A model generated the notes under the pieces. That model did not search any database and was not told the DNA's origin. It saw only the letters and a list, made by a program, of their open reading frames with translations. The position numbers and the translations under genes are program-made. DNA of 64,000 nucleotides from Agarivorans sp. Alg241-V36 (GTDB lineage Bacteria > Pseudomonadota > Gammaproteobacteria > Enterobacterales > Celerinatantimonadaceae): the NCBI RefSeq assembly GCF_900537085.1, contig NZ_UNRE01000004.1:310001-374000 (forward strand), read 5' to 3'. Each line of letters begins with the position of its first letter. Position 1 is the first letter of the stretch. Shown here one piece after another: positions 34,665-42,067 of the stretch.

Positions 34665-35318
34665 TTAAGCGATAGCGCTACTTGGCTTTAAACGACGTTG
34701 TAAAAAGTGTAATAACATGCCGTAAAGCGGTACAAATAAGGCTAAGTTAACCGCTAATTTAAAGCCGTAATCCACCCAGGCTATTTCTACCCAATGCTCA
34801 GCCATAAAGGCGTCACTACTGGCATAAAACGCCACCGCAAAAAATAGCAAGGTATCCACCAAGTTACCAAATACACTGGAACCCGCAGGCGCTACCCACC
34901 AATGTTTTAACTGGCGTAAACGGTCAAATACTTTTACGTCTAACAGTTGCCCCACCGAATAAGCTAAGAAGCTGGCTAAGGCAATACGTGCCACAAAGCC
35001 ATTCCAAGCCAGTAAGCCGCTCATACCTTGATATTCACCTTGATAAAACAGCACCGACACGACATAACTCACCAACAAGGCCGGCAGCATTGCGGTAAAG
35101 ATAATTTTGCGTGCTCGCGACGCTCCAAACAAGCGCACGGTTAAGTCGGTAGCTAAGAAAATAAAGGGAAAAGTAAACGCACCCCAGGTGGTGTGAAAAC
35201 CAAATACCGTGAAGGGCAATTGCACCAAGTAATTGCTGGCAGCAATAGTAACGATATGAAATAAAGCGAGAATAATCACACTGCGGCGCTCGGCCTCAGT
35301 TAATTGTAAAAACCACAT
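34665..35318 (-). CDS. yhhQ: Queuosine-precursor transporter YhhQ
   Basis: The product has 217 residues with about six membrane segments (COG1738/YhhQ family). Visible signatures are F-P-F-I-F-L-A-T-D-L-T-V-R-L-F-G and the late G-N-L-V-D-T-L-L-F-F. YhhQ imports preQ0/preQ1, precursors of the modified tRNA base queuosine. A preQ1-I riboswitch lies directly upstream and supports the assignment: excess preQ1 would shut down its translation. Confidence 0.93.
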   Translation of the reverse strand: MWFLQLTEAERRSVIILALFHIVTIAASNYLVQLPFTVFGFHTTWGAFTFPFIFLATDLTVRLFGASRARKIIFTAMLPALLVSYVVSVLFYQGEYQGMSGLLAWNGFVARIALASFLAYSVGQLLDVKVFDRLRQLKHWWVAPAGSSVFGNLVDTLLFFAVAFYASSDAFMAEHWVEIAWVDYGFKLAVNLALFVPLYGMLLHFLQRRLKPSSAIA

Positions 35319-35365: not shown

Positions 35366-35630
35366 GGGCGGCGGAGTATTCCACAACTATTGGCTAACTG
35401 CAATAGCTAAACGATTAGTCAAGAAATTCTGCGTTTTTGATTTTTTTGGTGATAACTAACAGTTTTTGAGCAAACACACCTATCAAGGCTTCGCTCACTG
35501 TCAGTTCTTAGTTAAACTGAGCTATTGCCCTGCCCGCGCTCAAACCCACGATTGGTTTGTTCTCTCATCGTGGCAGCAGCACTTGCTACAGCAGTGAGTG
35601 CTAAGTTTAGCTAATTTAAAAGGATGCACT

Positions 35631-38600
35631 TTGTCTGGCTTATTGCGGATCATCTTGATCGATACTCACCTTAAAGGTGTGGTAGAACTTAAACTCGACC
35701 AACACAGCAATATATGTGGTACTAACGCTTCAGGTAAAACCACATTACAGCGTCTTATTCCGGTGTTTTATGGCGAATATCCTAGCCGCGTAGTGCCAAG
35801 TACTCGCGACAGTTTCGAGCGTTGGTACTTGCCACGAGAAGCCAGCTACATCATCTATGAATACCAGCAATATAACGGTCAAGTTGCCCAAGTGGTGCTG
35901 TCTTCTGGTCGCGAAGACCAAGGAGTTAAGTATCGCTTTATCGGCAAGCCTTTTGAGCTAAGCGATTTTGTGGATAAACAAGATGAGCAAGGTACCTGGT
36001 TTTTGGCTCCCGCTAAACTGGGCCAAAAACTCAAAAAGCAAGAGTACAATGGCGCCGCGCTAGCCACTACCCGATTTCTAAATACCCGAGAATTTCGGGC
36101 AATTATTCAAAACGACCGCAGTTTACAAAATGCCGGCGACAGCGATTTAAAAGCCTTTGCTCGCCAGTTTTCTATGTGCGATCCAAAACATGGCCTGCGC
36201 CATATTGAAAAGCTCGCCAAAGCAGTGCATTCCAAAGAAGGCAAAATGGAAACCATCAAGTCGATGATTGCCGCCATTTTGGAAGAAGAAGGCGTTACTT
36301 TAAAACCCACTTGGGTAGACGCCAACAAAGCGCAGGCGTGGATCCAAGAAACCCGCTTAATTCAGCAGTTTGAAGCGATTCGCCCTAAATTTGTAAAGCT
36401 TGAGCAAATTAACCAACAACTGCTCAGCAGCGAAGCTCAATTACACCAACTAGATAAAAACCTGCAAAACGATGAAGCAGAGCTATTTAGCCAAAGTGAA
36501 CAGGCGCAACGTCAACTTAACCAGTTAAAACAAAAGTTAAGCGAGTTAGAACAGGAATGGCAAAATCAACGTGAGCAGCTAAACCAAGCGGTTTCTAGTG
36601 CCAATGCCGATGTTTCAAGTTTCGATAAGCAACTTAATCATATCGAAGATGACTACCAAGCTTGGCAAGACAAAAACATCGAACACGCACTTAGCGCGGT
36701 TGAGCAACTGCCGCTATGGCGTGAGCAAGTAAGAGAAGTGAGTGAGCGCCACCAGTTGCTCACCGAGCAGCACAGCGACATTGAAGCTCACTTCAACCAA
36801 CGCAAGAGTGAAATTAACGAGCAGCTCAACTCGGCGCTAAACAAACTGCATAAAAACAAAGATCAGCTGCAGCAGCAGCTCAACCAAGAAAAGCAGCAAC
36901 AACAAGCCGAGCTAAATAACGAACAGCAGCAGCAACAAAAACAAATTAGCCAGGTTGAGCAGAGCTTCCAACAGCAGCAACATAAAAACCAATTAGAACT
37001 GGCGCAGCTAGAGGCTGGCACCCTGCAAATGGGTTATACCGAAGAAGAAAGCCGCCAGCTTAATATCATGGACAATCGCCTCGACGAGGCCAACCAACAG
37101 CAACAATTACTGTCTGCACAAGTACGCCAACACAACGAACAATTGCACAGCTTAAAGCAGCAGCGCCAACAAGCTGACCAAGCCTTAGCCACTGCTAGCC
37201 AACAATCTCGCCAGCTAGAACAAAAGCTAAGTGGACTAAAAGACAGCTTACAACCGGCCGATGGCAGCCTACTGGCACACTTGCGCAGCGAGCACCCACA
37301 GTGGGAGCAAAGCATTGGTAAACTAATTAATCCTGAGCTGCTCAACCGTCGTGATTTAAAGCCACATAGCGAAACAAACCATAACAGCGTATTTGGCTTA
37401 GCCTTAGATTTAAAAGCCATCGACGCCCCCGAGTGCGCCGCCACCGAAGAGCAAATTAAGCAACAAATTGAGCAAATCCAGCAAGCTTTTAACGAGGCTC
37501 AAAAGCAACTCAAACAGGCTGAATTAGCGCTTGGCGATGCTAACAAAGCGGTGCAGCAACAAGACTTATCGGTTGCCGAAGCCACTGCCGCTCATCACAA
37601 CAGTGAAGACCAGCTAAAGCGTCTGCAAGAAGAAAAACAACTACTTAAAGAAAGCTTTTCTAGTGCCCTTAAACAGCGCCAAAGTGTGGGGCTGGAAAAG
37701 CAAACTAAGCTAAAAGCCTATTTAGAGAATGCACAAACGCAGCATCAAGAATACTTAGACGAGTTACGCGAGCAGCACCAAGAAGCCAAATTAGAAAAAA
37801 TGGCCTGGTGGGAGGAAAAGGTTGATGCCTTAGCCTTGCAACTAAGCCAAGCTCAAGACGCCATTAGCAATCGTCAGAAACAAGCCAAAGAGGCGCTAAA
37901 ACAGTCGGAACAATGGTATCGCGGCGAGTTGCAAGCTCAAGGCTTAGATGACCAGCTGATCGTTGATTTAGCCAAACAAAAGCGCCAACTTAACCAACAA
38001 ATTCAAGACGCCGAGCAGTATCGCGATGAAGTAAGCGAATACAAAATTTGGCACCAACAAGTGTGGCTAAACCAAAAACCACAACTTAACGATGCCCTTG
38101 CTAATGCTCGCCAAGCTCAGAGCACCGCCAAACAAGCACTTAACGAGCAACTAGCGCACTTCAAACAGCAGCGCGATAGCCAACAAGGTGAGTTAAGCAA
38201 GCTTAAGCAAGCGCTAGAACAGCTGCAGCAACAATATGGTCAAACTCAAAATCTGTTGCGTAAAATCAAGCAATTGGCTTTACCAAAACAAAGCAATAGC
38301 GGCGAAGCAATAGAAGCCGCCGGCACAGCTGCCGAGCGAGCCCGCCAAGCCGAACAGCAAATTCAGCAACGTAACCAGCAGCTTGAGCAAGTAAACGAAT
38401 CGGTTCGCCACTTTGACAGCTTATTGGCCCAGCAAGCGGGCTCTGACTTAAGCGAAACTTGGGAGCGTTCACGCGCCGCTTGTAGGCGCAGCAACGAGGA
38501 AGGTGAAAGCACCCTCGCCTATCGTGAATTAGTGCCACACCTGTCTGAACTGTTAAACGGTTTAGTGCCGCAAAAAGTCCAAGGTTTAATCGACCACGGT

Positions 38601-39350
38601 CGTAACTTGGGCATGAGCATTAGCAGCTTCTATCAAAACTTAAGCGACATTGACCAACGAATTCTCAGCCAAAGCCGTCGCATAACCCGCGAAATTGGTG
38701 AAGACTTAAGCCTTGATGGCGTATCTGATTCAGCAGTAAAAATTCGCTCTAAGATTAGCGAACTAGAGTTTTGGGATGAACTAAAAACCTTTGTTGATAA
38801 CTTCCAAGCTTGGCAGCAGCAAGGCTTTAATCAACTGCCCGACGAAGACTACGCCACCAGCATGCGGGTAGCGCTAGATATTATTGGCCGCAGCGCACTT
38901 AAAGAAGGGGTCTCTCGCCTATTGCTGATCGAGCTAACCCTGCGCGAGGGCAACAGTGACCTAGTGATCCGCACCGACCGCCAGCTTAATGAATCCAGTA
39001 GCCACGGTATGGCCTACTTAATTTTGTGTAAGTTTTTATTGGCCTTTACCCGCTTACTGCGCGGCAATGCTGATACCTACATTCATTGGCCCATTGATGA
39101 ACTAGGTACCTTGCACCAAAGCAATGTGAAGAAGATCTTTGATGCCTGTGACCATAACCAAATTCGCATTCTAGGTGCCTTCCCTAACCCAGAATCTGAA
39201 GTATTGGACTTGTTCACTCACCGCTACATCATCAACCGTGAAAAGCGCCAACTGCAAGTTGTGCAGCCACGGATTAATCCTTTACAAGAAAAGCTAAAAG
39301 CAGCCCAAGCGGCAAAAGCCAGTACTAAACAAGCGGAGGCTGAGCTATGA
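35631..39350 (+). CDS. SMC-like ATPase of a MksB/DUF3584 type
   Basis: I chose the TTG at 35631 (1239 residues), six bases after AAGGA; a GTG at 35598 lacks a site. The ATP-binding head is split, as in SMC proteins. Walker A is G-T-N-A-S-G-K-T (30-37), followed by the Y-L-P motif (66-68) that I recall as diagnostic of DUF3584. Near the C-terminus are a signature-like N-E-S-S-S-H-G-M-A (about 1119-1128) and Walker B with acidic pair (P-I-D-E, to about 1157). Residues about 240-1000 are a Gln-rich coiled coil with an interruption near 550-600, a possible hinge. It is coupled to two smaller genes. It is neither MukB nor RecN by its N-terminus. Chromosome organisation or defence is inferred. Confidence 0.85.
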   Translation: MSGLLRIILIDTHLKGVVELKLDQHSNICGTNASGKTTLQRLIPVFYGEYPSRVVPSTRDSFERWYLPREASYIIYEYQQYNGQVAQVVLSSGREDQGVKYRFIGKPFELSDFVDKQDEQGTWFLAPAKLGQKLKKQEYNGAALATTRFLNTREFRAIIQNDRSLQNAGDSDLKAFARQFSMCDPKHGLRHIEKLAKAVHSKEGKMETIKSMIAAILEEEGVTLKPTWVDANKAQAWIQETRLIQQFEAIRPKFVKLEQINQQLLSSEAQLHQLDKNLQNDEAELFSQSEQAQRQLNQLKQKLSELEQEWQNQREQLNQAVSSANADVSSFDKQLNHIEDDYQAWQDKNIEHALSAVEQLPLWREQVREVSERHQLLTEQHSDIEAHFNQRKSEINEQLNSALNKLHKNKDQLQQQLNQEKQQQQAELNNEQQQQQKQISQVEQSFQQQQHKNQLELAQLEAGTLQMGYTEEESRQLNIMDNRLDEANQQQQLLSAQVRQHNEQLHSLKQQRQQADQALATASQQSRQLEQKLSGLKDSLQPADGSLLAHLRSEHPQWEQSIGKLINPELLNRRDLKPHSETNHNSVFGLALDLKAIDAPECAATEEQIKQQIEQIQQAFNEAQKQLKQAELALGDANKAVQQQDLSVAEATAAHHNSEDQLKRLQEEKQLLKESFSSALKQRQSVGLEKQTKLKAYLENAQTQHQEYLDELREQHQEAKLEKMAWWEEKVDALALQLSQAQDAISNRQKQAKEALKQSEQWYRGELQAQGLDDQLIVDLAKQKRQLNQQIQDAEQYRDEVSEYKIWHQQVWLNQKPQLNDALANARQAQSTAKQALNEQLAHFKQQRDSQQGELSKLKQALEQLQQQYGQTQNLLRKIKQLALPKQSNSGEAIEAAGTAAERARQAEQQIQQRNQQLEQVNESVRHFDSLLAQQAGSDLSETWERSRAACRRSNEEGESTLAYRELVPHLSELLNGLVPQKVQGLIDHGRNLGMSISSFYQNLSDIDQRILSQSRRITREIGEDLSLDGVSDSAVKIRSKISELEFWDELKTFVDNFQAWQQQGFNQLPDEDYATSMRVALDIIGRSALKEGVSRLLLIELTLREGNSDLVIRTDRQLNESSSHGMAYLILCKFLLAFTRLLRGNADTYIHWPIDELGTLHQSNVKKIFDACDHNQIRILGAFPNPESEVLDLFTHRYIINREKRQLQVVQPRINPLQEKLKAAQAAKASTKQAEAEL

Positions 39351-40006
39351 GTAAATTAAGCGCCACCGGCATGAGCGAAACCGGTCGGATTTTAGAAGCC
39401 CTGTTAAGTGGCCAATTTATCTGCCAAGTGAGTGACGAAGATGGTTTTCATTTTTTAGCTGAAGAAGCTAACCGTGAGCGCATCGACAGCCACTTGCATG
39501 TACTTAACCGCCGCCTAGCCAGCGCTTGTGAAGGCGAATTGTATTTTTGTGCCTATCGCGAGCTAGGTGACAATGAGCATAAGGTGATAAGCCAGCAGTT
39601 TAGCGAAATAGCCGGCAGCTTGCTGCCGCTCACCGAGTGGCTAATTCTCAGCCAAGAAGCACAAGGGCAAGATAGCCCAATTAGTGCTGGTGTAGCGCTG
39701 CGTTTAAGCGAGCTGCAAACCGTGGTGGAAGACACTCCAGCACTGCGTGAACAACTGGCAAAAATTTCTCAGTACAAGTTATTTGGCTCAACCAGTAGCC
39801 AAGTAGATGGTCAGTTAAAACAAGTATTTAAGCGCCTGTGTGAACAAGGCTACTTGGTTCGCCCTAACCAAGAAAAACAAATCTACATAGCCACCGCTAA
39901 AGTGGATTACATTTTTGAAGTAATCAGCTTTATTGATGAAGCGGAAGGTTTAGGCCTAGAGCAACAAGCCATGGATGCCATTGGCCAGCAGGAGCCCTTA
40001 CTGTGA
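39347..40006 (+). CDS. MksE-like winged-helix subunit
   Basis: The product has 219 residues and overlaps the SMC-like gene by four bases and the next gene by four bases. Segments such as L-L-S-G-Q-F-I-C, L-F-G-S-T and I-Y-I-A-T-A-K-V-D-Y-I-F-E-V-I resemble MksE/DUF4194 subunits, which bind a kleisin and carry winged-helix domains. It probably bridges ATPase and kleisin. The family call is from pattern memory and context. Confidence 0.7.
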   Translation: MSKLSATGMSETGRILEALLSGQFICQVSDEDGFHFLAEEANRERIDSHLHVLNRRLASACEGELYFCAYRELGDNEHKVISQQFSEIAGSLLPLTEWLILSQEAQGQDSPISAGVALRLSELQTVVEDTPALREQLAKISQYKLFGSTSSQVDGQLKQVFKRLCEQGYLVRPNQEKQIYIATAKVDYIFEVISFIDEAEGLGLEQQAMDAIGQQEPLL

Positions 40007-41217
40007 ACCAACATTTGCAACAAGCAGGCTTAAAGCTATTTAAGCTGCTTGCGCGTCATGGCGAAAGCTTGATGCATGCTTACGTTAACGGCAAGCTAGA
40101 CGAAAGTAAGTTAGACAATAAGCAAATCGATTCGCTGCTGAAAGCTGGGGTCATCTGGCGACCTTCGGTTGACGAAGGCTTGCACCTTAGCTCTAACCTG
40201 CGCTCCTTGCTTGAAGAAGCCCTAAGCGATACCCGAAATAGGCAAATTGATTCTAATGTTGGTTCGCGTTTAGAAACCATTAAAACCTTGGCAGCACACT
40301 ATAAAGAAGCCTTACATATTGGCGATTTAGCCGCAGCCGACGTTTACCTCAATGATTTGAGCGAACACAGCTACAGCCTCACCGAAAGCCTGCGCCATAG
40401 CTCGCGGGTATTGTGGAGCCGCATCAACAATGAGTTTGGTTATGTACCGAGTTTAAGTGCCAAAATTCGTGAAAATGAGTTAGCCCAACAACAAGTGAGC
40501 GAATTACTCAACAGCCTCGCCTTGCTCAACTTTGATACCTTGAGCCAAATAGCCGGGGATATTCGCGAGCTGCGCCGGATATTAGTACTAAACCTAAGCC
40601 AAGCGGTCTACGACTGCACCCAAGAGCTAGCGGTAGTGCAAACGCGCTTGCTCACCTTGCTGGGGCGTTTTCGTGAATTGCGTGGTAAGTCGCGACTGCT
40701 CAAAGGCTTGCAGCTCTTTCATGCTCAGCATCCCGACTTCAGCCCTCAGGACCCTACTCAGCAAATCGACGTAGCTAGCTTGTTTAACCAAGCTCCTGCG
40801 CTACTCGCCAAGGCCAGTGTTGATATTCATAACAGCGAGCATGAACACGACTTACTGTTATCTCTTAGCCAGTTAAACCTACATCGCCAAACTAAAGCCA
40901 GTGAAACCGACACCGAGCATGCCGTTTCCCTAGAAGGTGCCGAAGAGTTTGCCTTGCAAGAGCAAAAGATAAAGCAAGATGTAGAGAACTACTTGTTAGG
41001 CGTTATAGAAAGTGCAGCGGGTCAAACCGCCTTAGAGTACTATCAAGAACAGGATCTAGAGTGGGACGCCGAAGCTTGGTTATACCAAGTATGGGGCAGC
41101 TACCATGCTCTGCCAGAAGAGCAGCGCGATTACTTTGCGCTAGACCCCATCGAAGACCCACACCCAATCTTTAGCGGCAACCGGATTGTTCGCGATTTAC
41201 AGGTATGGTTACGTTAA
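40003..41217 (+). CDS. Kleisin-like subunit of the SMC-type complex
   Basis: The product has 404 residues and is translationally coupled to the MksE-like gene. It is mostly helical: a winged-helix-like start (about 1-75), a helical middle (about 85-240) and a C-terminal part rich in acidic residues (about 300-404). Size and position match MukF/MksF/JetA kleisins, which link the two heads of an SMC dimer. No direct motif proves it. No fourth gene (the Toprim-type nuclease JetD/MksG) follows; a terminator lies 11 bases after the stop. Confidence 0.6.
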   Translation: MNQHLQQAGLKLFKLLARHGESLMHAYVNGKLDESKLDNKQIDSLLKAGVIWRPSVDEGLHLSSNLRSLLEEALSDTRNRQIDSNVGSRLETIKTLAAHYKEALHIGDLAAADVYLNDLSEHSYSLTESLRHSSRVLWSRINNEFGYVPSLSAKIRENELAQQQVSELLNSLALLNFDTLSQIAGDIRELRRILVLNLSQAVYDCTQELAVVQTRLLTLLGRFRELRGKSRLLKGLQLFHAQHPDFSPQDPTQQIDVASLFNQAPALLAKASVDIHNSEHEHDLLLSLSQLNLHRQTKASETDTEHAVSLEGAEEFALQEQKIKQDVENYLLGVIESAAGQTALEYYQEQDLEWDAEAWLYQVWGSYHALPEEQRDYFALDPIEDPHPIFSGNRIVRDLQVWLR

Positions 41218-41228
41218 TCAAGCCACAA

Positions 41229-41257
41229 TAGGTACTTAGTAAGCTAAGTACCTTCTT
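41229..41257 (+). terminator. Terminator of the SMC-like operon
   Basis: GGTACTTAG (41231-41239) pairs with CTAAGTACC (41244-41252) around TAAG, followed by TTCTT. Confidence 0.8.
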
Positions 41258-41386
41258 GCCGACTAATTAAGCTGCGCCTATATTTAATTACAAGCACTTA
41301 CGTTTAACATACAGAAATATTTGACTGACTAATTCATTATTTTAGAATATGCCAAATGTTGGGCCGGTACGCATTAGAGAGTAGAT

Positions 41387-42067
41387 ATGAAAGTAGTTGA
41401 TTTTATTAAGAAAAAGCGTGAAATGCTAGCCCAAAACCCATTCGAACTTAAAGATTGGTTGTCTCCAGCTATTCGCGATCACTGGATTGAATTCCTAAAT
41501 AAAGCCCATGATAGTCAATTAGTTAACTGGGTAAGAGAGCATCAATTAAGTTCCAATGGTGAGCAACAAGCTAGCTTTAAAGAAACCATTGAGTTACATC
41601 CTAAAGCTGAAGCCTTGTTAGAAGAACTGTCGATGCAGCTGGGTGAAGAAATTCATATTGGTGATTGGCTTAATGTTACCCAAGAACGAATTAACCAGTT
41701 TGCTGATGTTACCAAAGATCACCAATGGCTACATACTGACCCGCAGCGCGCTGCAGAAGAGTCGCCCTTTAAAACCACCATTGCCCATGGTTTTCTAACC
41801 TTGTCTTTATTGCCCGCACTTACAGAGAGCGTAGACCCAGACAAGCCGCTTTATCCATCGGCAAAAATGATGGTGAATTACGGCATCAACCAAGTTCGTT
41901 TTCCTTACCCGGTTAAAGTAAATAACCGGATTAGAGCGCGCACCCGCTTAACCAAAGTCATCCCGATTAAGCGAGGCTTAGAGCTGGTAAAAGAAATTAC
42001 CGTAGAAATTGAGGGCTGTCGCCGCCCGGCTTGTGTTGTGGAATCGGTGGTTCGTCTCTATTTTTAA
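41387..42067 (+). CDS. MaoC-family enoyl-CoA hydratase/dehydratase-like protein
   Basis: The product has 226 residues. A hot-dog fold MaoC domain occupies about residues 80-215 with the active-site region F-A-D-V-T-K-D-H-Q-W-L-H-T-D and A-H-G-F-L-T-L-S. Such enzymes hydrate enoyl-CoA thioesters. The first 75 residues are an added helical part not typical of the smallest members. It is a single gene; the substrate is unknown. Confidence 0.88.
   Translation: MKVVDFIKKKREMLAQNPFELKDWLSPAIRDHWIEFLNKAHDSQLVNWVREHQLSSNGEQQASFKETIELHPKAEALLEELSMQLGEEIHIGDWLNVTQERINQFADVTKDHQWLHTDPQRAAEESPFKTTIAHGFLTLSLLPALTESVDPDKPLYPSAKMMVNYGINQVRFPYPVKVNNRIRARTRLTKVIPIKRGLELVKEITVEIEGCRRPACVVESVVRLYF

Follow-up and report, generated by a model that had tools for sequence, protein, structure and literature searches.

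An ATPase-first SMC-KITE-kleisin operon of Agarivorans and the predicted Toprim nuclease of its relatives

Wadjet (JetABCD), MksBEFG and EptABCD are described bacterial systems that combine an SMC ATPase, a KITE protein and a MukF-like kleisin in one operon. MukBEF likewise has a KITE partner and a kleisin of the MukF fold, and MksBEF of Pseudomonas aeruginosa is a three-gene SMC complex without a nuclease that stands alongside Smc-ScpAB. In the excerpted text of PMC10123090, the MksBEFG system of C. glutamicum, with the operon written mksFEBG, has MksG as its nuclease, and the order of the P. aeruginosa genes is mksFEB; excerpts of reviews propose that plasmid-cutting ancestors which lost their nuclease gave rise to condensin-like MksBEF and perhaps to MukBEF. 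Here, we analyzed a window of 64,000 nucleotides from Agarivorans sp. Alg241-V36 (contig NZ_UNRE01000004.1, positions 310,001 to 374,000), which carries on its plus strand, at 35631..41217, a three-gene operon that shares the composition of these systems and resembles MksBEF, as described, in having no nuclease gene. The explanation that we favor, and judge reasonably probable, is that this operon is a former plasmid-restricting four-gene system whose nuclease was deleted in this lineage and whose core now serves as an accessory, non-cutting organizer of DNA.

The identity of the operon as an SMC-KITE-kleisin complex is well supported. Its open reading frames (ORFs) span 35598-39350, 39347-40006 and 40003-41217 on the plus strand with consecutive overlaps of 4 bp, and the second start of the first frame, a TTG at 35631 with AAGGA upstream, yields an MksB/JetC-like SMC ATPase of 1239 aa (35631..39350) that opens like the ORFs of G005, G006, G009 and G011 (MSGLLRIILIDTH); with the upstream GTG at 35598 as start, the protein would reach 1250 aa. 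A first-pass annotation, made from the letters alone, had reported the same three overlapping genes and ATPase length. The SMC matched Pfam DUF3584 (PF12128) over its full length (1051.6 bits against a cut-off of 31; profile positions 1-1190 of 1191); at 14 bits against SMC_prok_B, below the cut-off of 567, it is not the Smc of Smc-ScpAB. Invariant residues were read from an alignment of 13 SMC relatives, A1. The GTNASGKT, Y-L-P and P-I-D-E motifs named in the first-pass annotation are all present with key residues invariant: the Walker A motif G-T-N-A-S-G-K-T (residues 30-37; 35718..35741, plus strand) at G30, N32, G35 and K36, the Y-L-P motif at Y66, L67 and P68, and the Walker B motif W-P-I-D-E (residues 1153-1157; 39087..39101, plus strand) at D1156 and E1157. 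S-S-S-H-G (residues 1122-1126; 38994..39008, plus strand), with S1124 and G1126 invariant, is a candidate ABC signature motif by its place ahead of Walker B. The second gene (39347..40006, plus strand) encodes an MksE/JetB-like KITE protein of 219 aa, which matched MksE (PF21980) at 27.7 bits, narrowly above the cut-off of 27, and also the JetB profile; among 17 aligned relatives, 14 matched MksE at E 0.1 or better. The third (40003..41217, plus strand) encodes a 404-aa protein that matched no Pfam family and that we assign to the MukF/JetA/MksF-type kleisins from AlphaFold2, Foldseek and VIA-align. Its AlphaFold2 model (mean predicted local distance difference test score (pLDDT) 74.3, predicted template modeling score 0.41) shows an N-terminal winged helix, a helical bundle, a low-confidence linker at about residues 243-310 and a C-terminal winged helix. 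The top nine Foldseek rows all came from entries for MukBEF, MukEF or JetABC(D), the matched chains being taken as kleisins from their lengths and titles, with a best E of 1.2e-3 and none under E 0.001. The earlier assignments of the second and third proteins as MksE-like and kleisin-like agree with these results.

Comparison with the described systems places the operon near Wadjet and outside it. Profile-profile comparison linked the SMC to JetC (E 8.1e-11, over 45 columns around Walker A only), the KITE protein to JetB (E 6.7e-6) and the nuclease of relatives, described below, to JetD (E 2.2e-9); other pairings gave E 0.0082 or worse and 60 column-shuffled runs 0.044 or worse. PDB profile searches with the SMC, KITE, kleisin and nuclease alignments returned unrelated rows only, and viral contigs searched with the SMC alignment held no relative among 517 pattern matches. 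Gene order differs from that of Wadjet: the window subfamily runs SMC, KITE, kleisin and then nuclease where present, whereas 14 of 20 loci around JetD_C or weak DUF7281 matches in the same taxonomic order ran kleisin, KITE, SMC, JetD (assigned by size and position), with kleisins of about 480-675 aa and the first gene cut in one (L177). Five of the remaining six lacked the full set, and the sixth (L190, at G118:C18) has the canonical order with a 287-aa nuclease matching DUF7281 at 36.7 bits. L190 may be an intermediate between canonical Wadjet and the window subfamily. One genome of family f6, G060, holds both a nuclease-less DUF3584 operon (L073) and a canonical JetABCD locus (L179). The ATPase-first order, rightly singled out by the first-pass annotation as the reverse of the usual one, marks the whole subfamily, which PADLOC profiles barely detect: JetC and JetB match it at E 0.001-0.03 only (best E 0.016 and 0.0011 in the window), the kleisin has no match, and JetC1 and LmuB were each matched by 4 of the 13 SMCs of A1 at E 0.001 or better.

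MukBEF membership was ruled out, since neither the window SMC, a DUF3584 protein, nor its own genome has a match to the MukB N-terminal domain (PF04310), as the earlier "unlike MukB" implied. The gene order of MukBEF differs from that of the window operon too. MksBEF differs in placing the SMC gene last instead of first, and in the window's lineage nuclease loss is visible inside genera. DUF3584 and DUF7281, of which the window SMC and the nuclease of its relatives are clear members, are both unnamed in Pfam. In the literature that we searched (subscription papers and preprints lay outside its scope), DUF7281 was named nowhere and DUF3584 in five papers, in passing only, and the papers listed on Wadjet types, JetD loss and condensins in Shewanella/Psychromonas gave no description of this subfamily.

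We surveyed 197 genomes sampled from the order and found DUF3584 above cut-off in 75. The neighborhood was inspected in each of them, with 75 loci from 74 genomes (G027 being split in two) and the window as the remaining one; a contig search for further loci gave at least six loci. Mapping neighbors for a nuclease, as the first-pass annotation had advised, revealed a fourth gene after the kleisin in 43 of the 75 genomes, at one locus each, including the congener G001, and so the annotation's view of the missing nuclease as a defining trait is not supported. This gene overlaps or lies within 100 nt of the kleisin end in 40 of the 43 (the others are 191, 483 and 4856 nt off); the matches in G095 (E 1.8e-5) and G116 (at a contig end) are weak or partial. 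It corresponds to Pfam DUF7281 (PF23947) in 4/4 scanned cases (59-123 bits), and the Pfam model itself was above cut-off in 44 of the 197 genomes, all but one of which belong to the 75. Across 17 diverse rows the Toprim acids E151, D204 and D206 are invariant, as are K98, N152, R176, G177, G209 and Q280. Pfam JetD_C was above cut-off on the operon gene in five genomes (G010, G077, G094, G109 and G196), PADLOC JetD1 matched all three nucleases compared (E 4e-4, 2e-4 and 2.8e-8), and the nuclease profile, which finds canonical JetD at E 2.2e-9, gave E 0.14-0.36 against JetA, JetB and JetC. Given the Toprim acids and these JetD_C, JetD1 and JetD profile matches, the likeliest prediction from sequence is that DUF7281 represents a short, divergent nuclease of the JetD/MksG type. 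Many relatives resemble Wadjet in carrying a fourth Toprim nuclease, which differs in length (about 275-315 aa versus about 380-450 aa for Wadjet JetD).

The window operon carries no such gene. Its nuclease slot (41218..41386, plus strand) is empty, as the first-pass annotation had seen, and a whole-genome profile search found neither DUF7281 nor JetD_C in the own genome, though other nuclease families were not searched; with no JetD-type nuclease at the locus or genome-wide, we do not file the operon as Wadjet. The same search bears on a suggestion of the annotation, that this is a defense system borrowing a nuclease encoded elsewhere. According to review excerpts, purified JetD-type nucleases depend on an SMC core, which makes a partner in trans thinkable; the genome-wide negative for DUF7281 and JetD_C, the two families searched, lends it no support, and we consider it quite improbable. 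Within the genus the DUF7281 gene occurs in one of seven genomes and within the family in four of 12. The one congener, G001, has a core 98% identical to that of the window (1348 core columns) and a 295-aa DUF7281 Toprim nuclease that, by junction alignment, sits exactly between the kleisin and the following gene. In the sister genus the gene is intact in G009 and survives in G011 as a remnant of 157 nt that is 85% identical to the 3' part of the G009 gene by blastn. Profile searches of 35 nuclease-less loci, where G011 scored best at E 0.049, and blastn searches of 36 stretches downstream recovered no remnant but that of G011. A 12-nt likeness, noticed by eye, between window positions 41255-41266 and the 3' end of the G001 nuclease was too short to count.

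We built a tree of 76 concatenated cores by a quick search under LG+G4 (several long branches flagged; L110, L114 and L118, at contig ends or with a broken ORF, L134 and L136, the G027 fragments, and L141, the same as G172, were omitted). Nuclease presence and absence requires at least 16 changes on this tree, of which supported branches force 15; the count does not distinguish gain from loss. Nuclease and core divergence are correlated (Mantel r 0.87, 0/2000 permutations; nucleases L110 and L132 omitted), the nearest nuclease neighbor is among the three nearest cores in 35/42, and the G001 and G009 nucleases, of the same family, are sisters (SH-aLRT 98). On these grounds we read most changes as losses. 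Loss in the window's lineage is well supported; a single loss may account for the close congeners that have no nuclease, G001 having kept or regained the gene, and exchange of the nuclease between close species is possible. It could instead be that the three-gene form is older and the nuclease a plug-in gained several times, an idea that fits the neutrality of the change counts and the movement of the operon between families: locus L081 of G182, a genome of f6, is an f11-type four-gene operon that groups with family f11, which points to transfer. We hold this to be improbable, given that nuclease divergence tracks core divergence, that G011 keeps a decayed remnant, and that the nuclease is present in G119 and G066, the rows that diverge most, and in all seven plasmid copies.

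The core is under purifying selection comparable to that on ordinary chromosomal genes. Ratios of nonsynonymous to synonymous substitution rates (dN/dS), calculated by NG86 with some pairs saturated, were 0.032/0.035 for the SMC, 0.007/0.008 for the KITE protein and 0.025/0.023 for the kleisin between the window and nuclease-less G002/G004. Other nuclease-less pairs with usable dS, in family f2, gave core values of 0.011-0.066; in nuclease-bearing pairs the core gave 0.000-0.081 and the nucleases 0.07-0.27 (six pairs). Walker A is intact in all 33 nuclease-less tree rows; over the 76 rows the Walker A pattern was unmatched in one, G119, and the Walker B pattern, too narrow as written, in 19. 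This constraint favors some nuclease-independent role. That the operon is a leftover on its way out, without present function, would fit the loss of its effector and the looser constraint in one nuclease-less pair of f6; the intact Walker A motifs and the values of 0.007-0.035 in the window's genus speak against it, and we regard it as highly improbable.

Relatives of the operon are also plasmid-borne, as in Wadjet. A kleisin search found seven plasmid records, all with adjacent KITE, kleisin and nuclease genes and ATPase ORFs ahead. The copy on Enterobacter hormaechei plasmid pVIM-Exn692 (L147) has all four genes, with the SMC split by an IS256-like element, and adjoins a gene of the TnsD family and others annotated as SAVED, ThiF and Mov34, a context that suggests defense cargo; in the V. 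campbellii plasmid copy, SMC and kleisin are annotated as two ORFs each. The nuclease is present in 7/7 plasmid copies versus 43/75 genomes (Fisher p 0.039, in a small sample and ignoring relatedness), which ties the lineage to plasmid conflict. Together with the relationship to Wadjet and the precedent of Smc5/6-like silencing in excerpts of a review, this agrees with the possibility that the window core is a non-cutting plasmid silencer that has kept a preference for small circles of DNA and compacts plasmids, thereby sequestering or silencing them. In contrast to patchy defense genes, however, the operon occupies one chromosomal place with common flanking genes on both sides in 7/7 genomes of the genus, its SMC is present in 12/12 genomes of the family, and its selection is similar to that on neighbor genes; we think a silencer unlikely, if still worth entertaining.

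Returning to the explanation by nuclease loss, the ancestor would have been a Wadjet/MksBEFG-like operon in the order SMC, KITE, kleisin, DUF7281 nuclease, from which the nuclease gene would have been deleted in the window's lineage. By analogy with MukBEF, MksBEF and JetABC, the core would still form a ring that uses ATP to load onto DNA and extrude it, would no longer be able to cut circular DNA, and may have been retained for the usefulness of the motor itself, whose likeliest role is that of an accessory condensin alongside Smc-ScpAB. The own genome indeed encodes Smc (G000:C2, 965.6 bits) and ScpA. Several observations weigh against this explanation. The slot in the window holds no nuclease remnant by profile or blastn; the helical bundle of the kleisin also resembles STAT and CorA in VIA-align, and the kleisin had no sequence match to JetA in profile-profile comparison; a structure model of DUF7281 from a two-row alignment reached a mean pLDDT of 37.9 and was not used. 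Core dN/dS is ordinary among 19 locus genes compared with G002 (KITE second, kleisin sixth and SMC ninth lowest), and the nuclease-less f6 pair G137-G096 is looser (0.13, 0.05 and 0.11). Finally, 12 of the 13 genomes of f11, a family described next, have retained the nuclease, so that its loss does not by itself signal a housekeeping role.

Other condensins were distributed unevenly. Strong MukB matches occurred in 69 of the 197 genomes, ScpA in 95 and DUF3584 in 75, with MukB and DUF3584 together in G119 only (relatedness ignored). MatP was considered as a partner and rejected: it occurs in 53/197 genomes, all with MukB, and in no DUF3584-only genome, some MukB families lack it, and the own genome has no match. 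Among the 75 DUF3584 genomes, 55 have ScpA and 19 have neither ScpA nor MukB. SMC_hinge (PF06470) proved too insensitive, missing the own-genome Smc. We tested for Smc in 18 of the 19, leaving out G102, which has an SMC_hinge match; it was present in G009 and G037, and nothing rose above coiled-coil background in 13 genomes of f11 and three of f3. In the 13 f11 genomes (G021, G045, G064, G083, G100, G115, G129, G141, G153, G165, G176, G186 and G196) no Smc, ScpA or MukB was found by profile, and the DUF3584 complex is the sole condensin-like SMC found. Each has one strong SbcC_Walker_B match, beside an ORF of 401-408 aa in 6/6 and identified as SbcC next to SbcD in 2/2 scanned; f11 thus shows no other condensin by these profiles. 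The f3 genomes G078, G095 and G110 also have the DUF3584 complex without a Smc, ScpA or MukB match, and G095 has a canonical Wadjet locus as well. A broader reading, which we offer tentatively and would not yet call likely, is that DUF3584 SMC-KITE-kleisin complexes constitute an additional class of chromosome condensin in bacteria, derived from a plasmid-cutting system, with a detachable, often lost nuclease, and that the f11 machine, standing alone and mostly with its nuclease in place, would both organize the chromosome and restrict plasmids.

Downstream of the kleisin, a hairpin with a perfect 10-bp stem (AGGTACTTAG-TAAG-CTAAGTACCT; 41230..41253, plus strand; -14.1 kcal/mol, z -4.2) is the probable transcript end, and similar hairpins occur in G002 and G004. 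The terminator claimed by the first-pass annotation is supported to the extent of this stem; its T-run is poor and a consensus terminator scan did not list it. The upstream neighbor (34665-35318) encodes a transporter of queuosine precursors (NF008406, 348 bits). The product of the downstream neighbor (41387-42067) has 226 aa, gives a partial PaaZ-like match and is probably a dehydratase of the MaoC type.

These results offer a likely function for DUF7281 and for the DUF3584 operon, which is hardly visible to PADLOC profiles. They also point to f11 as a family in which the DUF3584 complex may be the sole condensin. Since congeners with and without the nuclease have cores about 98% identical, the supposed step from cutting to condensin can be compared within one genus, and the switch would be directly testable.

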